Virus record (IMG/VR): IMGVR_UViG_3300030430_004196
Location: 1-31,465 of that record
Source: a virus
DNA: 31,465 bases
Direction: 5' to 3' (one strand)
A program made the position numbers and the translations under genes. Under the pieces are notes generated by a model. The model was given only the letters and a program-made list of their open reading frames with translations, was not told the origin of the DNA and searched no databases. Of the stretch, positions 6,297 to 31,465 are shown piece by piece (position 1 is the first letter of the stretch; the number at the start of each line of letters is the position of its first letter).

Positions 6297-6812
6297 ATGG
6301 CAGATTTTGCACTTTTTGTTACAAGGGCGGATGTTGTAAAATTCACATCAGCCAACGGAAATATCGACACAGACAGCTTTATCCAATATCTGAAAGAGGC
6401 CCAAGATATTCACATACAAAACTATCTTGGAACAAAGTTATATGAAAAGCTCCAAGCGGATGTGATAGCTAATCCATCAACACTAACAGGAAATTATCAA
6501 ACACTTGTCAATACACACATAAAACCTTGTCTAGTTCATTGGGCAATGGTTCGTGCTTTGCCTTTTTTGACTTACACAGTTTCAAACAAAGGTGTGTTCA
6601 AAGGAACAAGTGAAAATGCAGAAAGCATTACAAAAGAGGAGCTTGACTATTTAGTTGAGAAAGAAAGGGAAACTGCACAATATTACACAGACAGGTTGAT
6701 TGATTTTTTAGTTTTCAATTCACCATCAATGTTTCCTGAATACTATACAAACAACAATGATGACAGACACCCACTGAAAGGTGGCACTGATTTCGAGGGT
6801 TGGGTTCTATGA
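6297..6812 (+). CDS. Head-tail connector (DUF6712-like)
   Basis: A mostly helical protein of 171 residues directly after the portal, two bases apart. 'IQYLKEAQDIHIQNYLGTKL' followed by 'YEKLQADVI' and the helix 'LVNTHIKPCLVHWAMVRALPFL' are the pattern of the DUF6712 family, thought to be the first head-tail connector. It should form a ring under the portal that joins head and tail. The late helix 'YTDRLIDFLV' and a flexible polar C-terminus follow. The start is ATG 6297 in the TAATTATGGC context. Confidence 0.7.
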   Translation: MADFALFVTRADVVKFTSANGNIDTDSFIQYLKEAQDIHIQNYLGTKLYEKLQADVIANPSTLTGNYQTLVNTHIKPCLVHWAMVRALPFLTYTVSNKGVFKGTSENAESITKEELDYLVEKERETAQYYTDRLIDFLVFNSPSMFPEYYTNNNDDRHPLKGGTDFEGWVL

Positions 6813-8230: not shown

Positions 8231-11200
8231 ATGTCTATAAATAAAAAGTTATTTCACAAAGCAGCAAGTGCTACTGACACATTTGAGCCTACTAAAAATT
8301 TTAATACTGTTTTATATACAGGTAATGGTGCAACACAAAAAGTTGGTGCATATATAAATCAAGGTGCAGCGTTCAATGGAACGAGTAGCAAAATCGTGTT
8401 TCCAAGTGGTGAACCTTTTGGTGATACTAACACAATTAAATCAATAAGCTGTTGGTTTAAATTGACAGACACTACAAGCAACACAACTGACAATGCTTGG
8501 ATTTATTCAGTTTCAAGTTCAGCAGATGCATTTAATTGGTTTTATGTCGCTGCAAGACCAACAACAAGCACGATTGAAGTATTTAGAAGAAAAACATCCT
8601 CAAGTCATAGTGCCTTTACTTCAGCGAGTTTTACACCTGACACAAATTGGCATCACATTGTTGCACAATTAAGTAGTTCAGAAGTTGAAATATTTTTAGA
8701 TGGTACTAAATTATCAACAACAAACACTAATGCAGGTGATGGAACAAATACATCTTGGATAGATTTTGGTGCATTTTCAGGAACAGTTGTTAGTCAGGCA
8801 GGTAAATCAAGGGAAAACACAGCTAAATATTTTGATGGACAACTTGACCAACAAAGGTTCTTCAATAGAGAGTTAACAGATAGTGAGGTCACACAATTAT
8901 CAAATGAAACCTTTGAATCAGCAACAAAATCCACAACAGATATATTTGGTGATAGGTCAGGACTTGCATTGTATCAATATGAAAACAATGCTAATGATAC
9001 AGGTGGTGCATCAGGTTATTTAAATGAGGGTGCAATTTTTAATGGTAGCAGTAGCAAAGTGCAATTACCATCTTTAGGTAATACTTTTCAAAACAATTTT
9101 TCTGTTGGGTTTTGGTTTTATATAAATAAAATACCATCAAGTGGACTCGTTTCTTTTGTAACAGGATTTGATGATTTCTATTTTTATGTACTTTTAAGAG
9201 ATAGTGATAAAAAAATTGAAACAAGAGTTGAAATAGGAAGCACAGGTTATGTTTTAAAAAGCACAAGCACCTTTACTGACAATGATGGATGGCATCATGC
9301 ATCAGTTACAAAGTCAAGTTCAGATGGTTTAAAATTATATATTGATGGCAGTTTAGAAAATAGTTCATCAGGTGCAACAGGTAATTTAGATACAGCAAGT
9401 GGTACAAACTTGCTTGGTGCATACAATTCAAGTGGTTCAACAGTACAATATTATTTGGATGGAAAACTTGATGAAGTCAGAATTTATGGTGATGTATTGA
9501 CAGCAACAGAAGTAGGACACATAGCAAGTAACACGACTGCATCTATACCAACAGACAACCTTGAAGCATATTACAAATTTAATGGCACATTTCAAGATGA
9601 ACAACAAACACACGATGGTGTTGGAAGTAATGTAATATTCAGATATGATGGAACTGCAAGTAATGTAACTTTTCAAGGTTCTTTAAGATTTAAACCTGAT
9701 TGGGTTTGGATAAAATCAAGGACAGAGGGTACATCAAATTATACAGGAAACCATTTTTTATATGATTCTGTAAGAGGTGTTTTAAAAAGAATTAAATCAA
9801 ATAGTAATGATGCAGAAAGCACATTTAGTGATTCACTTACTGCGTTTAATACTAACGGATTTTCAGTTGGCTCTGCTATTCATGTGAACAAGAGCACCGA
9901 TGATTATGTTGGGTGGTGTTGGAAAGGTGGAGGAGAACCTACTGCAACTAATTCGCAAAGTTCAGGTGCAATGACTGCAAACAGTGTATCAATTGATGGT
10001 TCTTTACAATCTGCATATACTCCAAGTGGTTCACCTGATATTTACCCAAAAAAAATGAGTATAAACACTCAAGCAGGTTTTAGTATTGTGCATTATCAAA
10101 ATGCAGGTAGTGCATCGAAAAGAGTGCCACACGGACTTAGTGCTACCCCTAAAGTTTGCTTAATTAAAAAGTTCTCAACAAGTGGAGCTTGGCATTGGCA
10201 CACAACAGCTATTGATGGAAGTTTTGATGATTTAATATTAAACGACACGAGTATTAAAACTAATTTATCTTTAAGTGCTTTTGATGCTAATACGTTTGCA
10301 GCAGAATCAGGTGCAACAGGACAAGATATGATTGCCTATTGTTTTGATGATACAGTACAATCAGGTGCTTATCATAAGTTTGGTTCGTTCACAGGTAATG
10401 ATGATACGAGTGGTGTAATTGTAGAAACAGGATTTGAAGTTGCTTGGCTACTTATAAAAAATGCAACTACTAATGGTAATAGTTGGGCAATAATAGATAA
10501 CAAAAGAAGCACATCAAACCCAAGAACTACTGTTTTATTTCCAAATGATTCAGCACAAGATACCACATCAACAGGTGGTGTTAATTTTTTAACTAATGGT
10601 TTTCAAGTAGTAAGTACAGATAATTATCTTAATGGTAATGGTGACACAATGTTATATTGGGCAATTGCTGCAGACCCATCTACTGCATCAACACCTGTAG
10701 TAACAGATGCTTTTGATGTTGTAACTTATACAGGCACAGGTGCAGCACAAGATATACTTACAGATTGTAATGCTGATTTTGCTTGGATAAAATCTACAAG
10801 TCACAGCACAAGTTGGGAAATGCACGACACAGTTAGAGGTGAACCAAGCAGGATTTCATCAGATACAAATAGTGCTGACCCTGGGACTGCTAATGGTTTT
10901 GTGAATTTTATAGACAAAGGATTTAGTGTTGATGACACAGGTGGTGGTGGTGAAGTAAATGCAAGTGGTAGAACATACCAAGCATTACTTTGGAGTGCAG
11001 GTTCACACGAGGACAATTTACCAACTATAAACACACAAGGCACAATAAATAGTACAGTAAGTGTGAATGATTTAGCAGGATTTAGTATTGTAAAATATAC
11101 AGGTAATGGCACAGATGGTGCAACTGTCGGACATGGACAGTCAGCAAGGCCAGATTTAATTTTTACAAAAAACATTGATGAAACTAAAGATTGGAATGTA

Positions 11201-11686
11201 AAAGAATTTACATCTATGACTAACGACAATGACAGGTTAGAATTAAACGATGACGCTGCAATTGTTACAGCAGGGTCAACTTCTTTTATAAAATCAACTT
11301 CAAATGCAAATACAATTACTTTAGGAAATAGCACAAGAGTTAATGAAAATGGCAAAGTACATATCATGTATTGTTTCAGGTCAATTACAGGCTATAGTTC
11401 TGTAGGAACATACACAGGTCAAACAAGTGGTGTGACAATTACAACAGGTTTTAGACCTAGATTTATTTTAGTGAAATCTACAAACAATGTAGAAAATTGG
11501 GTAATATTAACAAGTGATTTAGGTAGTGGTAATGCACTTAAAGCAAACACAAATTCAGATAATGATGTAAGTTCAAGAAATACGTTTACATTATCAGATA
11601 CAGGATTTTCATTCCCAAATCAATCTACTGCAGATGCAGCACTTAACGAAAATGGTTATGAATATCTTTATTTTGCAATTAAATAA
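8231..11686 (+). CDS. Large tail fibre with two LamG-like domains and marine fibre repeats
   Basis: 1151 residues, the largest gene. Residues about 25-235 and 255-450 are two concanavalin/LamG-like domains, each with 'AFNGTSSKIVFPSG' or 'IFNGSSSKVQLPSLG' near the start, a 'WHHI/WHHA' strand, an 'IFLDGTKL/LYIDGSLE' strand and a closing 'DGQLDQQRFF/DGKLDEVRIY'. Such domains bind sugars. From about 460 to the end there are five or six copies of a repeat with 'FxIVxYTGNG', a 'PDWVWIKSR' or 'ARPDLIFTKN' strand, a 'DSVRG' or 'DTVRG' loop and a 'NGFSVG' end; I know this pattern from fibres of marine phages (DUF7483-like). It should recognise the host surface. The gene is notably repetitive and AT-rich. 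It has no signal peptide. Confidence 0.75.
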   Translation: MSINKKLFHKAASATDTFEPTKNFNTVLYTGNGATQKVGAYINQGAAFNGTSSKIVFPSGEPFGDTNTIKSISCWFKLTDTTSNTTDNAWIYSVSSSADAFNWFYVAARPTTSTIEVFRRKTSSSHSAFTSASFTPDTNWHHIVAQLSSSEVEIFLDGTKLSTTNTNAGDGTNTSWIDFGAFSGTVVSQAGKSRENTAKYFDGQLDQQRFFNRELTDSEVTQLSNETFESATKSTTDIFGDRSGLALYQYENNANDTGGASGYLNEGAIFNGSSSKVQLPSLGNTFQNNFSVGFWFYINKIPSSGLVSFVTGFDDFYFYVLLRDSDKKIETRVEIGSTGYVLKSTSTFTDNDGWHHASVTKSSSDGLKLYIDGSLENSSSGATGNLDTASGTNLLGAYNSSGSTVQYYLDGKLDEVRIYGDVLTATEVGHIASNTTASIPTDNLEAYYKFNGTFQDEQQTHDGVGSNVIFRYDGTASNVTFQGSLRFKPDWVWIKSRTEGTSNYTGNHFLYDSVRGVLKRIKSNSNDAESTFSDSLTAFNTNGFSVGSAIHVNKSTDDYVGWCWKGGGEPTATNSQSSGAMTANSVSIDGSLQSAYTPSGSPDIYPKKMSINTQAGFSIVHYQNAGSASKRVPHGLSATPKVCLIKKFSTSGAWHWHTTAIDGSFDDLILNDTSIKTNLSLSAFDANTFAAESGATGQDMIAYCFDDTVQSGAYHKFGSFTGNDDTSGVIVETGFEVAWLLIKNATTNGNSWAIIDNKRSTSNPRTTVLFPNDSAQDTTSTGGVNFLTNGFQVVSTDNYLNGNGDTMLYWAIAADPSTASTPVVTDAFDVVTYTGTGAAQDILTDCNADFAWIKSTSHSTSWEMHDTVRGEPSRISSDTNSADPGTANGFVNFIDKGFSVDDTGGGGEVNASGRTYQALLWSAGSHEDNLPTINTQGTINSTVSVNDLAGFSIVKYTGNGTDGATVGHGQSARPDLIFTKNIDETKDWNVKEFTSMTNDNDRLELNDDAAIVTAGSTSFIKSTSNANTITLGNSTRVNENGKVHIMYCFRSITGYSSVGTYTGQTSGVTITTGFRPRFILVKSTNNVENWVILTSDLGSGNALKANTNSDNDVSSRNTFTLSDTGFSFPNQSTADAALNENGYEYLYFAIK

Positions 11687-11826
11687 TGGACAATTTTAAA
11701 ATTTATATATTCAACGGAACAGCCTTGGCATTGAGCATTACTGACATCAACCCACTGTTGCAAGGGATTGCACTACTGCTCACAATAGCATATACAATAA
11801 TACAAATAGCAAACAAGATAAAATGA
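11686..11826 (+). CDS. Small membrane protein, holin-like (46 aa)
   Basis: Begins at the TAATG overlap with the fibre gene. After 'MDNFKIYIFNGTALALSI' it has one membrane segment (about residues 24-42, 'LLQGIALLLTIAYTIIQIA') and a Lys-rich end. The next gene starts inside its stop (ATGA). Position at the head of the lysis cassette and one membrane helix with a charged tail suggest a holin accessory or antiholin. I recall similar short proteins starting MDNF in Bacteroidota phages. Confidence 0.55.
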   Translation: MDNFKIYIFNGTALALSITDINPLLQGIALLLTIAYTIIQIANKIK

Positions 11827-12233
11827 AACTTCCATCAAATGGTACAGCTCGAGATATTAGACACTTCGCAGGAAGCCTCACTGTGTTTTTCCTGGTTGTT
11901 GTCATATTATACTATTTGTCAAAATATACCATCCCACAAGAAAATGCACAAATCATAAACACACTGATTGGTATGATTGCAGCAAGTATTGCAATGGTCA
12001 TCAGTTCAATTACAGGCCAAAAACCTGACACAGAAAGAAATTTAAAAGAACAACTAGAAAAAAAAGAACAGCAAATTGATTTTTTAGTCAGAGAAAAAGA
12101 CAGATTAGAAAGCATGATAATTGATTTGCAAAAACAGATATTAATTAATTATGACAATACACTTGACAGGATTTTGATTTCCAAGAGTATTGATTATGAC
12201 ATGAAAAAAAACCCCCCAAAAAATGAGAAATAG
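11823..12233 (+). CDS. Two-segment membrane protein with coiled coil (holin or spanin-like)
   Basis: 136 residues. Segment one is about 18-34 ('LTVFFLVVVILYYLSKY') and segment two about 42-64 ('AQIINTLIGMIAASIAMVIS'). Residues about 70-110 form a charged coiled coil ('ERNLKEQLEKKEQQIDFLV'). The C-terminal end is basic and contains a run of homopolymers (A8, C6, A6) just before the next start. The layout fits a membrane-disrupting lysis protein, either a class II holin or a spanin-like protein. It is fourth-codon-overlapped with the gene before and sits upstream of the endolysin. Confidence 0.55.
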   Translation: MKLPSNGTARDIRHFAGSLTVFFLVVVILYYLSKYTIPQENAQIINTLIGMIAASIAMVISSITGQKPDTERNLKEQLEKKEQQIDFLVREKDRLESMIIDLQKQILINYDNTLDRILISKSIDYDMKKNPPKNEK

Positions 12234-12306
12234 ACCAAAATGCGAGTGCGGTTGCACTCTTAACCCTGATGGCTTTTGTGATGGAAGCCACATAAATAAT
12301 TCATAA
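12223..12306 (+). CDS. Tiny CDGSH-type peptide (27 aa)
   Basis: The whole product is short: MRNRPKCECGCTLNPDGF then CDGSHINNS. It holds the CDGSH ending plus an upstream CxC, so the three Cys and one His that bind a 2Fe-2S cluster in mitoNEET-type proteins are all present. Spacing between CxC and Cys-Asp-Gly differs slightly from the textbook pattern (two residues between Thr and Pro rather than three, and three rather than one before the last Cys). A fourth cysteine sits in the loop. The start overlaps the gene before (10 bases, different frame), and the next start follows by one base. It is too short for a full CDGSH domain; a small metal-binding peptide is the safest call. Coding support is the tidy fit between neighbours. 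Confidence 0.55.
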   Translation: MRNRPKCECGCTLNPDGFCDGSHINNS

Positions 12307-12307
12307 T

Positions 12308-12487
12308 ATGCAAACATTTATTATAATTTTATCAGTGCTTTTATTTATTAGTGTTGTGATTGTTGCCTTAACAGTTTATGGCCTGTTCACAGACAAAGAC
12401 AAAGATGGAATCCCTGATGCACTAGAAAATAAATTCAATGATGTTGTTAGTGACATCAAAACCGAAATATCAAAACTTAAAAAATAG
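12308..12487 (+). CDS. Small membrane protein with Asp-rich calcium-type loop (59 aa)
   Basis: One membrane segment at about 3-25 ('FIIILSVLLFISVVIVALTV'), followed by 'DKDKDGIPDALE' at about 29-40, the DxDxDG calcium loop of thrombospondin-type-3 or EF-hand-like repeats, and an amphipathic helix 'NDVVSDIKTEISKLKK'. It is part of the lysis cassette and may be a membrane-anchored regulator of lysis. I do not recognise a family. Confidence 0.55.
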   Translation: MQTFIIILSVLLFISVVIVALTVYGLFTDKDKDGIPDALENKFNDVVSDIKTEISKLKK

Positions 12488-12492
12488 TAACA

Positions 12493-12576
12493 TTGGACCA
12501 CATAGCTTTTTACATTGCTTGTAGGCTTGTCGAGTTTTTATTAATTTCATGGTGGTATAACATGAACAATAAATGA
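12493..12576 (+). CDS. Tiny hydrophobic ORF with TTG start (27 aa)
   Basis: The product reads MDHIAFYIACRLVEFLLISW and ends WYNMNNK. It starts at TTG 12493 and its stop overlaps the next start (ATGA at 12573). It exactly fills the only gap in the lysis cassette, and is a single amphipathic membrane-type helix. Real coding is likely but not proven because of the TTG start and short length. Confidence 0.4.
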   Translation: MDHIAFYIACRLVEFLLISWWYNMNNK

Positions 12577-13034
12577 AAAGTATAAGCAAACACATAAGTT
12601 TCAAAGAGGCTATAAAATCAAACACAGCTTTAAGACTAGACATTGACAACACACCTAGTGATTATCATATCACAAACATGGTTGGTGTTGCAAAGAATAT
12701 TTTTGAACCCTTACGAGAATTTGTTGGTGGTCCAATAAAAATCACATCATTTTACAGGTGTGAAAATTTAAACAAGGCTATCGGTGGGAGTTCTATGTCA
12801 CAGCACTGTGAAGGCAGAGCAATGGACCTGGATGATACATTTGGCCATAAAACAAATGCTCAAATGTTTTTTTACATAAAAAAGAACTTGAACTTTGACA
12901 CATTGATTTGGGAGTTTGGCGATGATGACAACCCTGATTGGATTCATGTTTCTTGGGTTTCAAATGATGAAAACAGAACAAGATGTTTAAGAGCAGAAAA
13001 ATTTAATGGTCGGACTTCATACAGAATGATATAA
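12573..13034 (+). CDS. Endolysin, peptidase M15-type (D,D/L,D-peptidase)
   Basis: 153 residues. The zinc site is visible: His78 and Asp85 in 'SSMSQHCEGRAMDLDD' (the SxHxxGxAxD motif) and His125 in 'DWIHVSW', with a likely catalytic Glu114 in 'LIWEFGDD'. 'GPIKITSFYRCENLNKAIGG' precedes them as usual. M15 enzymes cut peptide cross-links in peptidoglycan, so this should lyse the host from inside. No signal peptide, so access depends on the holin genes on either side. Starts by ATGA overlap with the tiny hydrophobic ORF, and its stop overlaps the holin start (TAATG). Confidence 0.88.
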   Translation: MKSISKHISFKEAIKSNTALRLDIDNTPSDYHITNMVGVAKNIFEPLREFVGGPIKITSFYRCENLNKAIGGSSMSQHCEGRAMDLDDTFGHKTNAQMFFYIKKNLNFDTLIWEFGDDDNPDWIHVSWVSNDENRTRCLRAEKFNGRTSYRMI

Positions 13035-13411
13035 TGCTTAAAATACTTTTAGGTTTACTTGGCAAAAATAAATCAGGCAAGTCACCACTTGGTGGACTAG
13101 CTCTTGATATTAGAGAGGCCATTAAAGGAAAAGAACTTGACCCACAAAGACTGATTGAGCTGCAATCAGAAATCAACAAACTAGAAGCACAACACAGGAG
13201 TCTTTTTGTTTCAGGCTGGAGGCCTAGTCTTGGCTGGGTTTGCAGTCTTGCTTTTGCTTATCACTTTGTTGCCTTTCCTATAATTAAAACAATATATCCA
13301 CATATTGATTTTCCTGTTTTAGAAACTGAACCCTTATTTACTGTGCTGCTTGGAATGCTAGGACTAGGAGGAATGAGAACATTTGAAAAGCTAAAAGACA
13401 AAACAAGATAA
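13034..13411 (+). CDS. Holin of the three-segment type (PF11351-like)
   Basis: 125 residues. An N-terminal hydrophobic stretch is followed by a soluble helix (about 37-57, 'DPQRLIELQSEINKLEAQHR'), then 'SGWRPSLGWVCSLAFAYHFV' at about 60-79, the 'GWRPxxGW' signature of the three-membrane-segment holin family also found in gene transfer agents. A last membrane segment is near 97-115. It should open the inner membrane for the endolysin encoded just upstream, with which it overlaps (TAATG). Confidence 0.8.
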   Translation: MLKILLGLLGKNKSGKSPLGGLALDIREAIKGKELDPQRLIELQSEINKLEAQHRSLFVSGWRPSLGWVCSLAFAYHFVAFPIIKTIYPHIDFPVLETEPLFTVLLGMLGLGGMRTFEKLKDKTR

Positions 13412-13548
13412 TGGCAAGGCAAATAATAAGCAACTACAAAAGAAAAACCAAAGTAAAAAGAAAAGGCATTCATGCAAAAACAAAAAGTTCAAAACTAAAA
13501 AGTTCAAAAAATTACACCAAGGCTTACAAGGGCCAAGGCAGATGTTAA
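13411..13548 (+). CDS. Small very basic protein (45 aa)
   Basis: Overlaps the holin stop (TAATG). The sequence is almost entirely Lys, Arg, Ser and Thr: MARQIISNYKRKTKVKRKGI then 'HAKTKSSKLKSSKNYTKAYK' and 'GQGRC'. I recognise this as a short protein widespread in Bacteroidota phages. Function is not established; binding to nucleic acid (packaging, ribosome or RNA) is plausible from composition. Confidence 0.7.
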   Translation: MARQIISNYKRKTKVKRKGIHAKTKSSKLKSSKNYTKAYKGQGRC

Positions 13549-30855: not shown

Positions 30856-31465
30856 ATGGACATAATTGAATTAATAATTGATGAGAATGACCAAACACTT
30901 GGCATTGAAGCAGTGAGCTTGGTTGAAGCACCAGCGATTGAGGAAAACTTTGTTGCACTAAAAAATCAAAAGATTGAATTTGCAGAGGTTGACAAGGAAA
31001 AAAGAATTTTGCTTGGACCTGCACTGATTCCAAACAAACCTATCTTTAGAAAAAAAGGGGATGATTCAGAGGGATTTTACATTTACTTTTCCAAAGACAC
31101 CGTTCGAAAAGCAAGTGAATTGTTTTTTCAAAAGGGTAATCAAAACAATGCAACACTTGAACACAATGTCAAACTCAAAGGACTAACAGTTGTTGAAAGC
31201 TGGATTGTCGAGGGTGAAAATGACAAGAGCAAAAATTATGGCCTTGATATGCCACAAGGAACATGGATGATTTCCATGAAAGTGGATGATGATAAAATAT
31301 GGCAAGAATTTGTAAAAAGCAAAAAAGTTCTTGGATTTAGCATTGAAGGATATTTTGCAGACAGATTTGAAAGGCCACAAGACAGGTCCATCAAAGATAA
31401 GTTGAGTGAACTAGACAGTGAATATTTACTTGAGGAACTTAAAGAAATGCTTTCTACAAGAGTGA
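30856..31465 (+). CDS. Prohead protease, XkdF/S78-type, N-terminal part (cut by contig end)
   Basis: 203 codons are present before the window ends. 'MDIIELIIDENDQTLGIEAV', 'SLVEAPAIEENFVAL', 'RILLGPALIPNKPIFRKK' and 'GFYIYFSKDTVRKASELFFQ' are the classic XkdF-like start. From residue 82 it overlaps the left repeat, where the same protein runs on to 1335. Here His103 and Ser162 complete the likely catalytic pair. The ATG follows the TTGTATAAAT element; the gap to the tape measure gene is 29 bases. Confidence 0.85.
   Translation, partial: MDIIELIIDENDQTLGIEAVSLVEAPAIEENFVALKNQKIEFAEVDKEKRILLGPALIPNKPIFRKKGDDSEGFYIYFSKDTVRKASELFFQKGNQNNATLEHNVKLKGLTVVESWIVEGENDKSKNYGLDMPQGTWMISMKVDDDKIWQEFVKSKKVLGFSIEGYFADRFERPQDRSIKDKLSELDSEYLLEELKEMLSTRV
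31099..31465. repeat. Right copy of 367-bp terminal redundancy
   Basis: Pairs with 1-367. The six differences (right positions 31101, 31347, 31350, 31425, 31440, 31455) are all synonymous third-base changes in the protease frame, so this is not random sequencing noise. They mean the contig ends derive from slightly different phage lineages or that the repeat copies have diverged. Confidence 0.95.

Follow-up and report, generated by a model that had tools for sequence, protein, structure and literature searches.

A CDGSH-like microprotein gene in the lysis region of an uncultured marine phage, with homologues in marine Flavobacteria

The locus and its gene cassette

The window, by which we mean the whole stretch of 31,465 nucleotides analysed here (IMG/VR virus record IMGVR_UViG_3300030430_004196, positions 1 to 31,465), carries a lysis cassette in which a very short gene stands between genes for small membrane proteins. 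We call the product of this gene mini-CDGSH. The genes and features concerned are the following, all on the plus strand.

11686-11826, +: membrane protein of 46 aa, holin-like at most (weak PHROG holin match, E=0.03), in an order kept in relatives
11823-12233, +: protein of 136 aa whose N-terminal part has TM segment(s) and whose charged tail looks coiled-coil; a homologue precedes the mini-CDGSH gene in relatives
12223-12306, +: mini-CDGSH microprotein gene, 27 aa, product MRNRPKCECGCTLNPDGFCDGSHINNS, recognised from homologues in many phages and Flavobacteria and from dN/dS
12241-12291, +: 17-residue metal-ligand core CECGCTLNPDGFCDGSH within that gene, with the putative ligands Cys7, Cys9, Cys19 and His23, from alignment to RsCISD (3tbm) and PMC3174974
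12308-12487, +: 59-aa single-TM protein with a DKDKDGIPDALE motif, starting 1 bp after the mini-CDGSH gene
12573-13034, +: Peptidase M15 endolysin (PF08291, E=7.6e-14; phrog_894)
13034-13411, +: 3-TM holin (GTA_holin_3TM; PF11351, E=6.7e-13; phrog_3427)

All four ligand positions of CDGSH proteins are present in the 27-mer (three Cys and one His, CxC ... C-x3-H, within CDG(S/T/A)H), and their spacing is CxC-x9-C-x3-H. The published consensus, C-X-C-X2-(S/T)-X3-P-X-C-D-G-(S/A/T)-H, places 8 residues between Cys2 and Cys3 (PMC5859297). The initial annotation, which had described a 27-residue ORF with the four CDGSH ligands at a slightly non-canonical spacing, was therefore correct for 12223-12306 (+), with x9 against the published x8. 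When back-translated, the motif has a single copy in the window and none in any of 100 dinucleotide shuffles.

The gene shares 11 bp with the upstream gene 11823-12233 and ends 1 bp ahead of gene 12308-12487, an overlap and a gap which together place it within a run of closely spaced late genes. Its location beside holin and endolysin genes, also pointed out at the outset, holds true, as the PF08291 match of the M15 endolysin and the PF11351 match of the 3-TM holin attest. The microprotein of the window has no TM segment, signal or lytic domain and no match to a lysis family in Pfam or PHROGs. Scans of Pfam, NCBIfam and PHROGs returned no match of any kind for this ORF, and the three small membrane-protein ORFs of the cassette belong to no family above cut-off.

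Two further features of the window deserve mention. At 13411-13548, a 45-aa strongly basic protein is encoded (net charge +16), and several phage groups have relatives of this protein close to the mini-CDGSH gene. The two ends, 1-367 and 31099-31465, share 367 bp at 98.4% identity, with 6 mismatches, and form a terminal repeat with small differences. These shared ends suggest that the record is a nearly complete genome of ~31 kb, terminally redundant or circular.

Conservation, synteny and selection in phages

Homologues were collected by DNA patterns, of which the one applied to viral contigs fixed NxDGxCDGxxH alone. It matched 79 viral-contig stretches, 71 of which also have CxC, absent from the pattern, at the predicted upstream place; the remaining 8 look like chance matches. 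The resulting family of 25-30 aa proteins (consensus CxCGx[ST]xNx[DE]GxCDG[ST]H) extends over several uncultured phage lineages and marine flavobacterial chromosomes. Its core, CxCG-x-[ST]-x-[ND]-x-x-G-x-CDG-[ST]-H, is invariant across 55 distinct cores, an invariance that the search pattern partly imposes and that is independent of it for CxC in 71 of 79 cases. The CxC-x9-CDG spacing, without Pro11, recurs in each of the 90 distinct proteins collected, the spacing of the right half being fixed by the pattern and the distance to CxC being free. The search for homologues in viral and metagenomic sets, proposed with the initial annotation, has thus found them in many phages. A tblastn search against cultured phages gave no match for the window ORF or for a 110-aa fusion form, and we found no report of the family in the open-access literature searched. 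ORFs of ~27 codons are readily overlooked by gene callers.

Further phage lineages, with contigs as long as 110 kb, have stand-alone versions of 22-33 aa, which often lie near holin-like or endolysin genes. The enrichment in such positions is weak: with related sequences counted separately, 18 of 50 phage copies lie at most 1.5 kb from a holin or endolysin gene, against ~10.6 expected at random positions. Extended phage forms reach ~110 aa (L005 group), 41-46 aa with a DLNEDVPFADK tail, or 57-73 aa directly ahead of an endolysin gene (L002 group). In contig L060 (6278-6607), the mini-CDGSH gene is fused to a gene with a MTFCASCKSCPAIDIS motif, and a separate small phage gene with this motif stands directly ahead of the mini-CDGSH gene in L011 (about 192-558), L030 and L044. 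In contig L013, a mini-CDGSH ORF of 22 aa directly follows a gene (about 8436-8792) for an exported protein that resembles thioredoxin, with a PF00085 match (E 7.8e-5) which narrowly misses the cut-off.

An unrelated gene of the window, 6297-6812, served as bait for finding cassettes independently of the mini-CDGSH ORF. Of the cassettes found in this way, eight have the ORF, always in the same slot, and about 20 are without it (locus counts in this study are not phylogenetically independent), and the phage relatives found by pattern keep it in that slot as well. Several phages without the mini gene have other small membrane-protein genes there, such as ORFs of 51 aa whose TM segment is C-terminal. 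A homologue of the TM gene 12308 occurs in all 8 bait-found cassettes with the mini gene and in 2 of the 20 without it. The mini gene comes before the small TM gene in the window and in L020, and after it in L031, L037 and L079. The idea of a strict pairing with TM gene 12308 was dropped, since the TM gene that accompanies the mini gene in L020 and L079 is another one, of 51 aa.

Because a set selected by pattern is biased by that pattern, dN/dS was redone without the fixed codons and on the set found by synteny. This codon-substitution test, also suggested by the initial annotation, indicates purifying selection instead of neutral evolution: dN/dS is 0.117 over four independent pairs from the bait-found cassettes, in which 10 changes are synonymous and 6 non-synonymous, a split with a binomial p=1e-4 under neutrality. 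In the larger sets, with pattern-fixed codons excluded, the values are 0.34 for phages and 0.15 for cells. The mini-CDGSH ORF is a selected protein gene, yet an accessory one.

Cellular copies and canonical-spacing relatives

Scanning 84,980 species genomes yielded 35 loci, nearly all of them in MAGs of marine Flavobacteriaceae or Cryomorphaceae, and several copies lie on contigs of 0.6-0.9 Mb, which identifies them as chromosomal. Among 299 sampled genomes of one flavobacterial family, 19 have a match at E <= 1e-3, in some cases a weak one; in a wider sample of the phylum, the single match at E <= 1e-6 among 395 genomes is the genome on which the sample was centred. Of 15 host genomes that encode the microprotein, 10 have a separate gene for a full-length PF09360 protein, which led us to reject the notion that the microprotein is a misread piece of a full CDGSH gene.

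The neighbourhood of the host genes is rich in functions linked to oxidative stress. A YceI gene ends 3-35 bp upstream of the microprotein start in 27 of 48 host loci (some genomes being counted twice); about half of the host loci are without YceI, which we count against a role in redox stress. Genes for MarR or HxlR regulators and for a rhodanese are also found upstream, and in L185 and L186 genes for an NADPH-dependent FMN reductase and a pirin lie downstream. MarR and HxlR proteins, FMN reductases and pirins are often part of oxidant and quinone responses. The host loci thus present a recurrent operon-like arrangement with redox-stress genes (YceI, MarR/HxlR, FMN_red, pirin). YceI lipocalins act as a conserved defence against lipid peroxyl radicals and in their detoxification (PMC9113575).

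The host peptide MPNRPKCGCGNTQNPDGFCDGSHAKK closely resembles that of the window, in a comparison over 26 residues, too few to fix the direction of transfer between phage and host. The best reading of these sequences is that the gene would be common to phage and host, or acquired from the host. Six of the 299 genomes of the sampled flavobacterial family contain remote, prophage-like relatives of the terminase, which would fit a flavobacterial host for the window phage.

In Verrucomicrobia, the module takes other forms. Tandem double mini-CDGSH proteins of 54-57 aa (L207, 1498-1671, minus strand; L208, 1480-1644, plus strand) fit with a module working in pairs. The verrucomicrobial ribosomal protein bS16 (L209, 1447-2097, and L210, 1441-2055, both on the minus strand) carries a mini-CDGSH module in a long Ala/Glu-rich C-terminal tail.

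Stand-alone CDGSH ORFs of canonical spacing, 24-51 aa long, are common in viral contigs (L213-L332), for example at L223 293-367, L226 5926-6030 and L275 8850-8924, and all three of those tested pass PF09360. Like mini-CDGSH, they contain little beyond the module; unlike it, they have the x8 spacing, Pro11 and other neighbours. Eight viral contigs have a gene for an AhpC-type peroxiredoxin and an AhpD-like (CMD) gene directly ahead of such an ORF, in an ahpC-ahpD-small CDGSH operon of constant 946-bp spacing (L258, 1863-2018, minus strand; L228, L244, L247, L264, L279, L292 and L311). This context is that of the canonical-spacing relatives, not of the mini-CDGSH subfamily, and is counted against a redox reading of the latter.

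Possible roles and relation to known systems

The YceI and regulator neighbourhoods of the hosts and the viral ahpC-ahpD contexts point to redox stress rather than to lysis as such. In the reading we prefer, and to which we would give an even chance, mini-CDGSH is a minimal 2Fe-2S stress factor for redox and iron buffering or electron relay, shared with the hosts, its phage copy lying in the late/lysis region. The bare 3Cys-1His module of NEET/CISD proteins, with a loop longer by one residue, would most likely hold a labile 2Fe-2S cluster, probably in a dimer or on a partner protein, and could act as a small redox or iron buffer or as an electron relay against peroxide, quinone and lipid-radical stress. 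Marine Flavobacteria would employ it next to YceI lipocalins, in operon-like units controlled by MarR/HxlR regulators. In the phage, whose copy belongs to a polycistronic late/lysis region, it would presumably sustain redox and Fe-S homeostasis in the oxidatively stressed, dying cell until lysis; late expression of this copy and gene exchange between phage and host are presumed here. Against a role in redox stress we count that no redox gene adjoins the mini-CDGSH gene in the window phage.

As for the metal, mini-CDGSH probably binds 2Fe-2S, with zinc, which would fit the sequence too, as the main rival. That a peptide of 25-30 residues, with its +1 loop and without a beta-sandwich, could constitute a complete 2Fe-2S protein and a stand-alone redox-stress factor of marine phages and Flavobacteria is a more tentative proposal, which we hold at somewhat less than an even chance. 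If true, this would be, to our knowledge, the smallest natural stand-alone iron-sulfur protein.

Alternatively, the module might be a structural zinc micro-module, that is, a CCCH zinc-knuckle-like adaptor for protein or membrane contacts, for instance with the neighbouring small TM protein. Such a role would accord with the loss of Pro11, the P motif and the beta-sandwich, with the C-terminal tail of bS16 (L209, L210), with the fusions to other phage proteins (L060 and the 110-aa L005 group) and with the co-occurrence of TM gene 12308 in relatives of the window phage. It would leave unaccounted for, however, the retention of all the cluster-holding residues of CISD proteins, D14 and S/T16 included, and the redox genes of the host neighbourhoods, and we deem it unlikely.

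The initial annotation had raised the possibility that redox sensing times lysis, in which case loss or oxidation of the cluster would alter the neighbouring small membrane proteins and trigger the holin and endolysin. Nothing beyond position bears this out. The fixed cassette slot in the group of the window phage, the translationally overlapping genes and the holin or endolysin genes nearby in other phage groups would suit a timer, but most cassettes of comparable phages are without the mini gene, which may stand on either side of the TM gene, flavobacterial chromosomes carry homologues without lysis genes, and the proximity to holin and endolysin genes is enriched weakly. Such a timer is improbable. 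We find it very doubtful, too, that the gene is an accessory moron without a specific phage role, be it a passenger host stress gene in a permissive late region of small ORFs or a minor virion component: its patchy presence and the small-ORF-rich surroundings in other phage groups would be expected, whereas purifying selection and the exact retention of the core across divergent phages would not. A chance ORF, suggested by a length of merely 27 codons, is practically out of the question, already refuted by conservation, synteny and selection.

Returning to the preferred reading of a redox-stress microprotein, one difficulty lies in the fold. In published accounts, CDGSH proteins form obligate dimers or pseudo-dimers on a beta-sandwich, CISDs are reported to require this beta-sandwich with an N-strand and a P motif (GP-phi-x-phi), and the smallest single-motif CISD solved has 53 residues (PMC3174974). 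The cluster-holding residues of CISD structures are C2, C4, S/T7, C13, D14, G15, S/T16 and H17 (PMC3174974); the mini-CDGSH family keeps all of them, including S/T7, D14, G15 and S/T16. Compared with the CDGSH/CISD consensus, the window protein has one extra residue between Cys2 and Cys3 (x9) and N-x-[D/E]-G in place of Pro11, and it is without the N-strand, the P motif and the beta-sandwich. At 27 residues it is too short to form a beta-sandwich, which counts against a CISD-like 2Fe-2S protein. AlphaFold models are of low confidence (pLDDT 66 and 62) and gave no PDB fold match; that of a 30-aa homologue, at this low confidence, has no predicted strand of at least 3 residues.

Against the Pfam gathering cut-off of 29.5 bits for zf-CDGSH (PF09360), 14 of 24 family members match weakly and below it (best E 6e-4), a 109-aa fusion scores 15.1 bits, and neither Pfam nor NCBIfam names the subfamily at cut-off. 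Since the rule of spacing and Pro11 is broken, parts of the fold are absent and the Pfam cut-off is not reached, the window protein would best be named a CDGSH-like variant and not a standard CISD.

Among known systems, the family profile has its best real PDB match in the bacterial type 4 CISD (RsCISD, PDB 3tbm), where one gap, next to Pro11, interrupts the alignment. RsCISD-like CISDs share CxC...CDGSH, S/T7, D14, G15 and S/T/A16 with the window protein, and have at least 53 residues against its 27. Type 6/class II tandem CDGSH proteins have two modules per chain, likewise L207 and L208, whereas the window protein has a single one; the modules of L207 and L208 are separated by ~7-9 residues, without room for a beta-sandwich, against ~20 in type 6. 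The conservation of so tiny a gene in other phages and beside oxidative-stress genes in marine Flavobacteria suggests that a bare micro-module may be enough for the function of the CDGSH family, which has been believed to require a larger, paired fold.

The viral auxiliary genes for the Fe-S proteins IscU and A-type carriers are likewise marine phage genes touching host Fe-S metabolism; their products are scaffold or carrier proteins, unrelated in sequence to the CDGSH module (PMC5332604). If our reading is true, mini-CDGSH would extend the viral Fe-S and redox genes to microproteins and would show how little protein suffices for a labile 2Fe-2S cluster, while a cluster-only family with an altered loop length would bear on the origin of the CDGSH domain.
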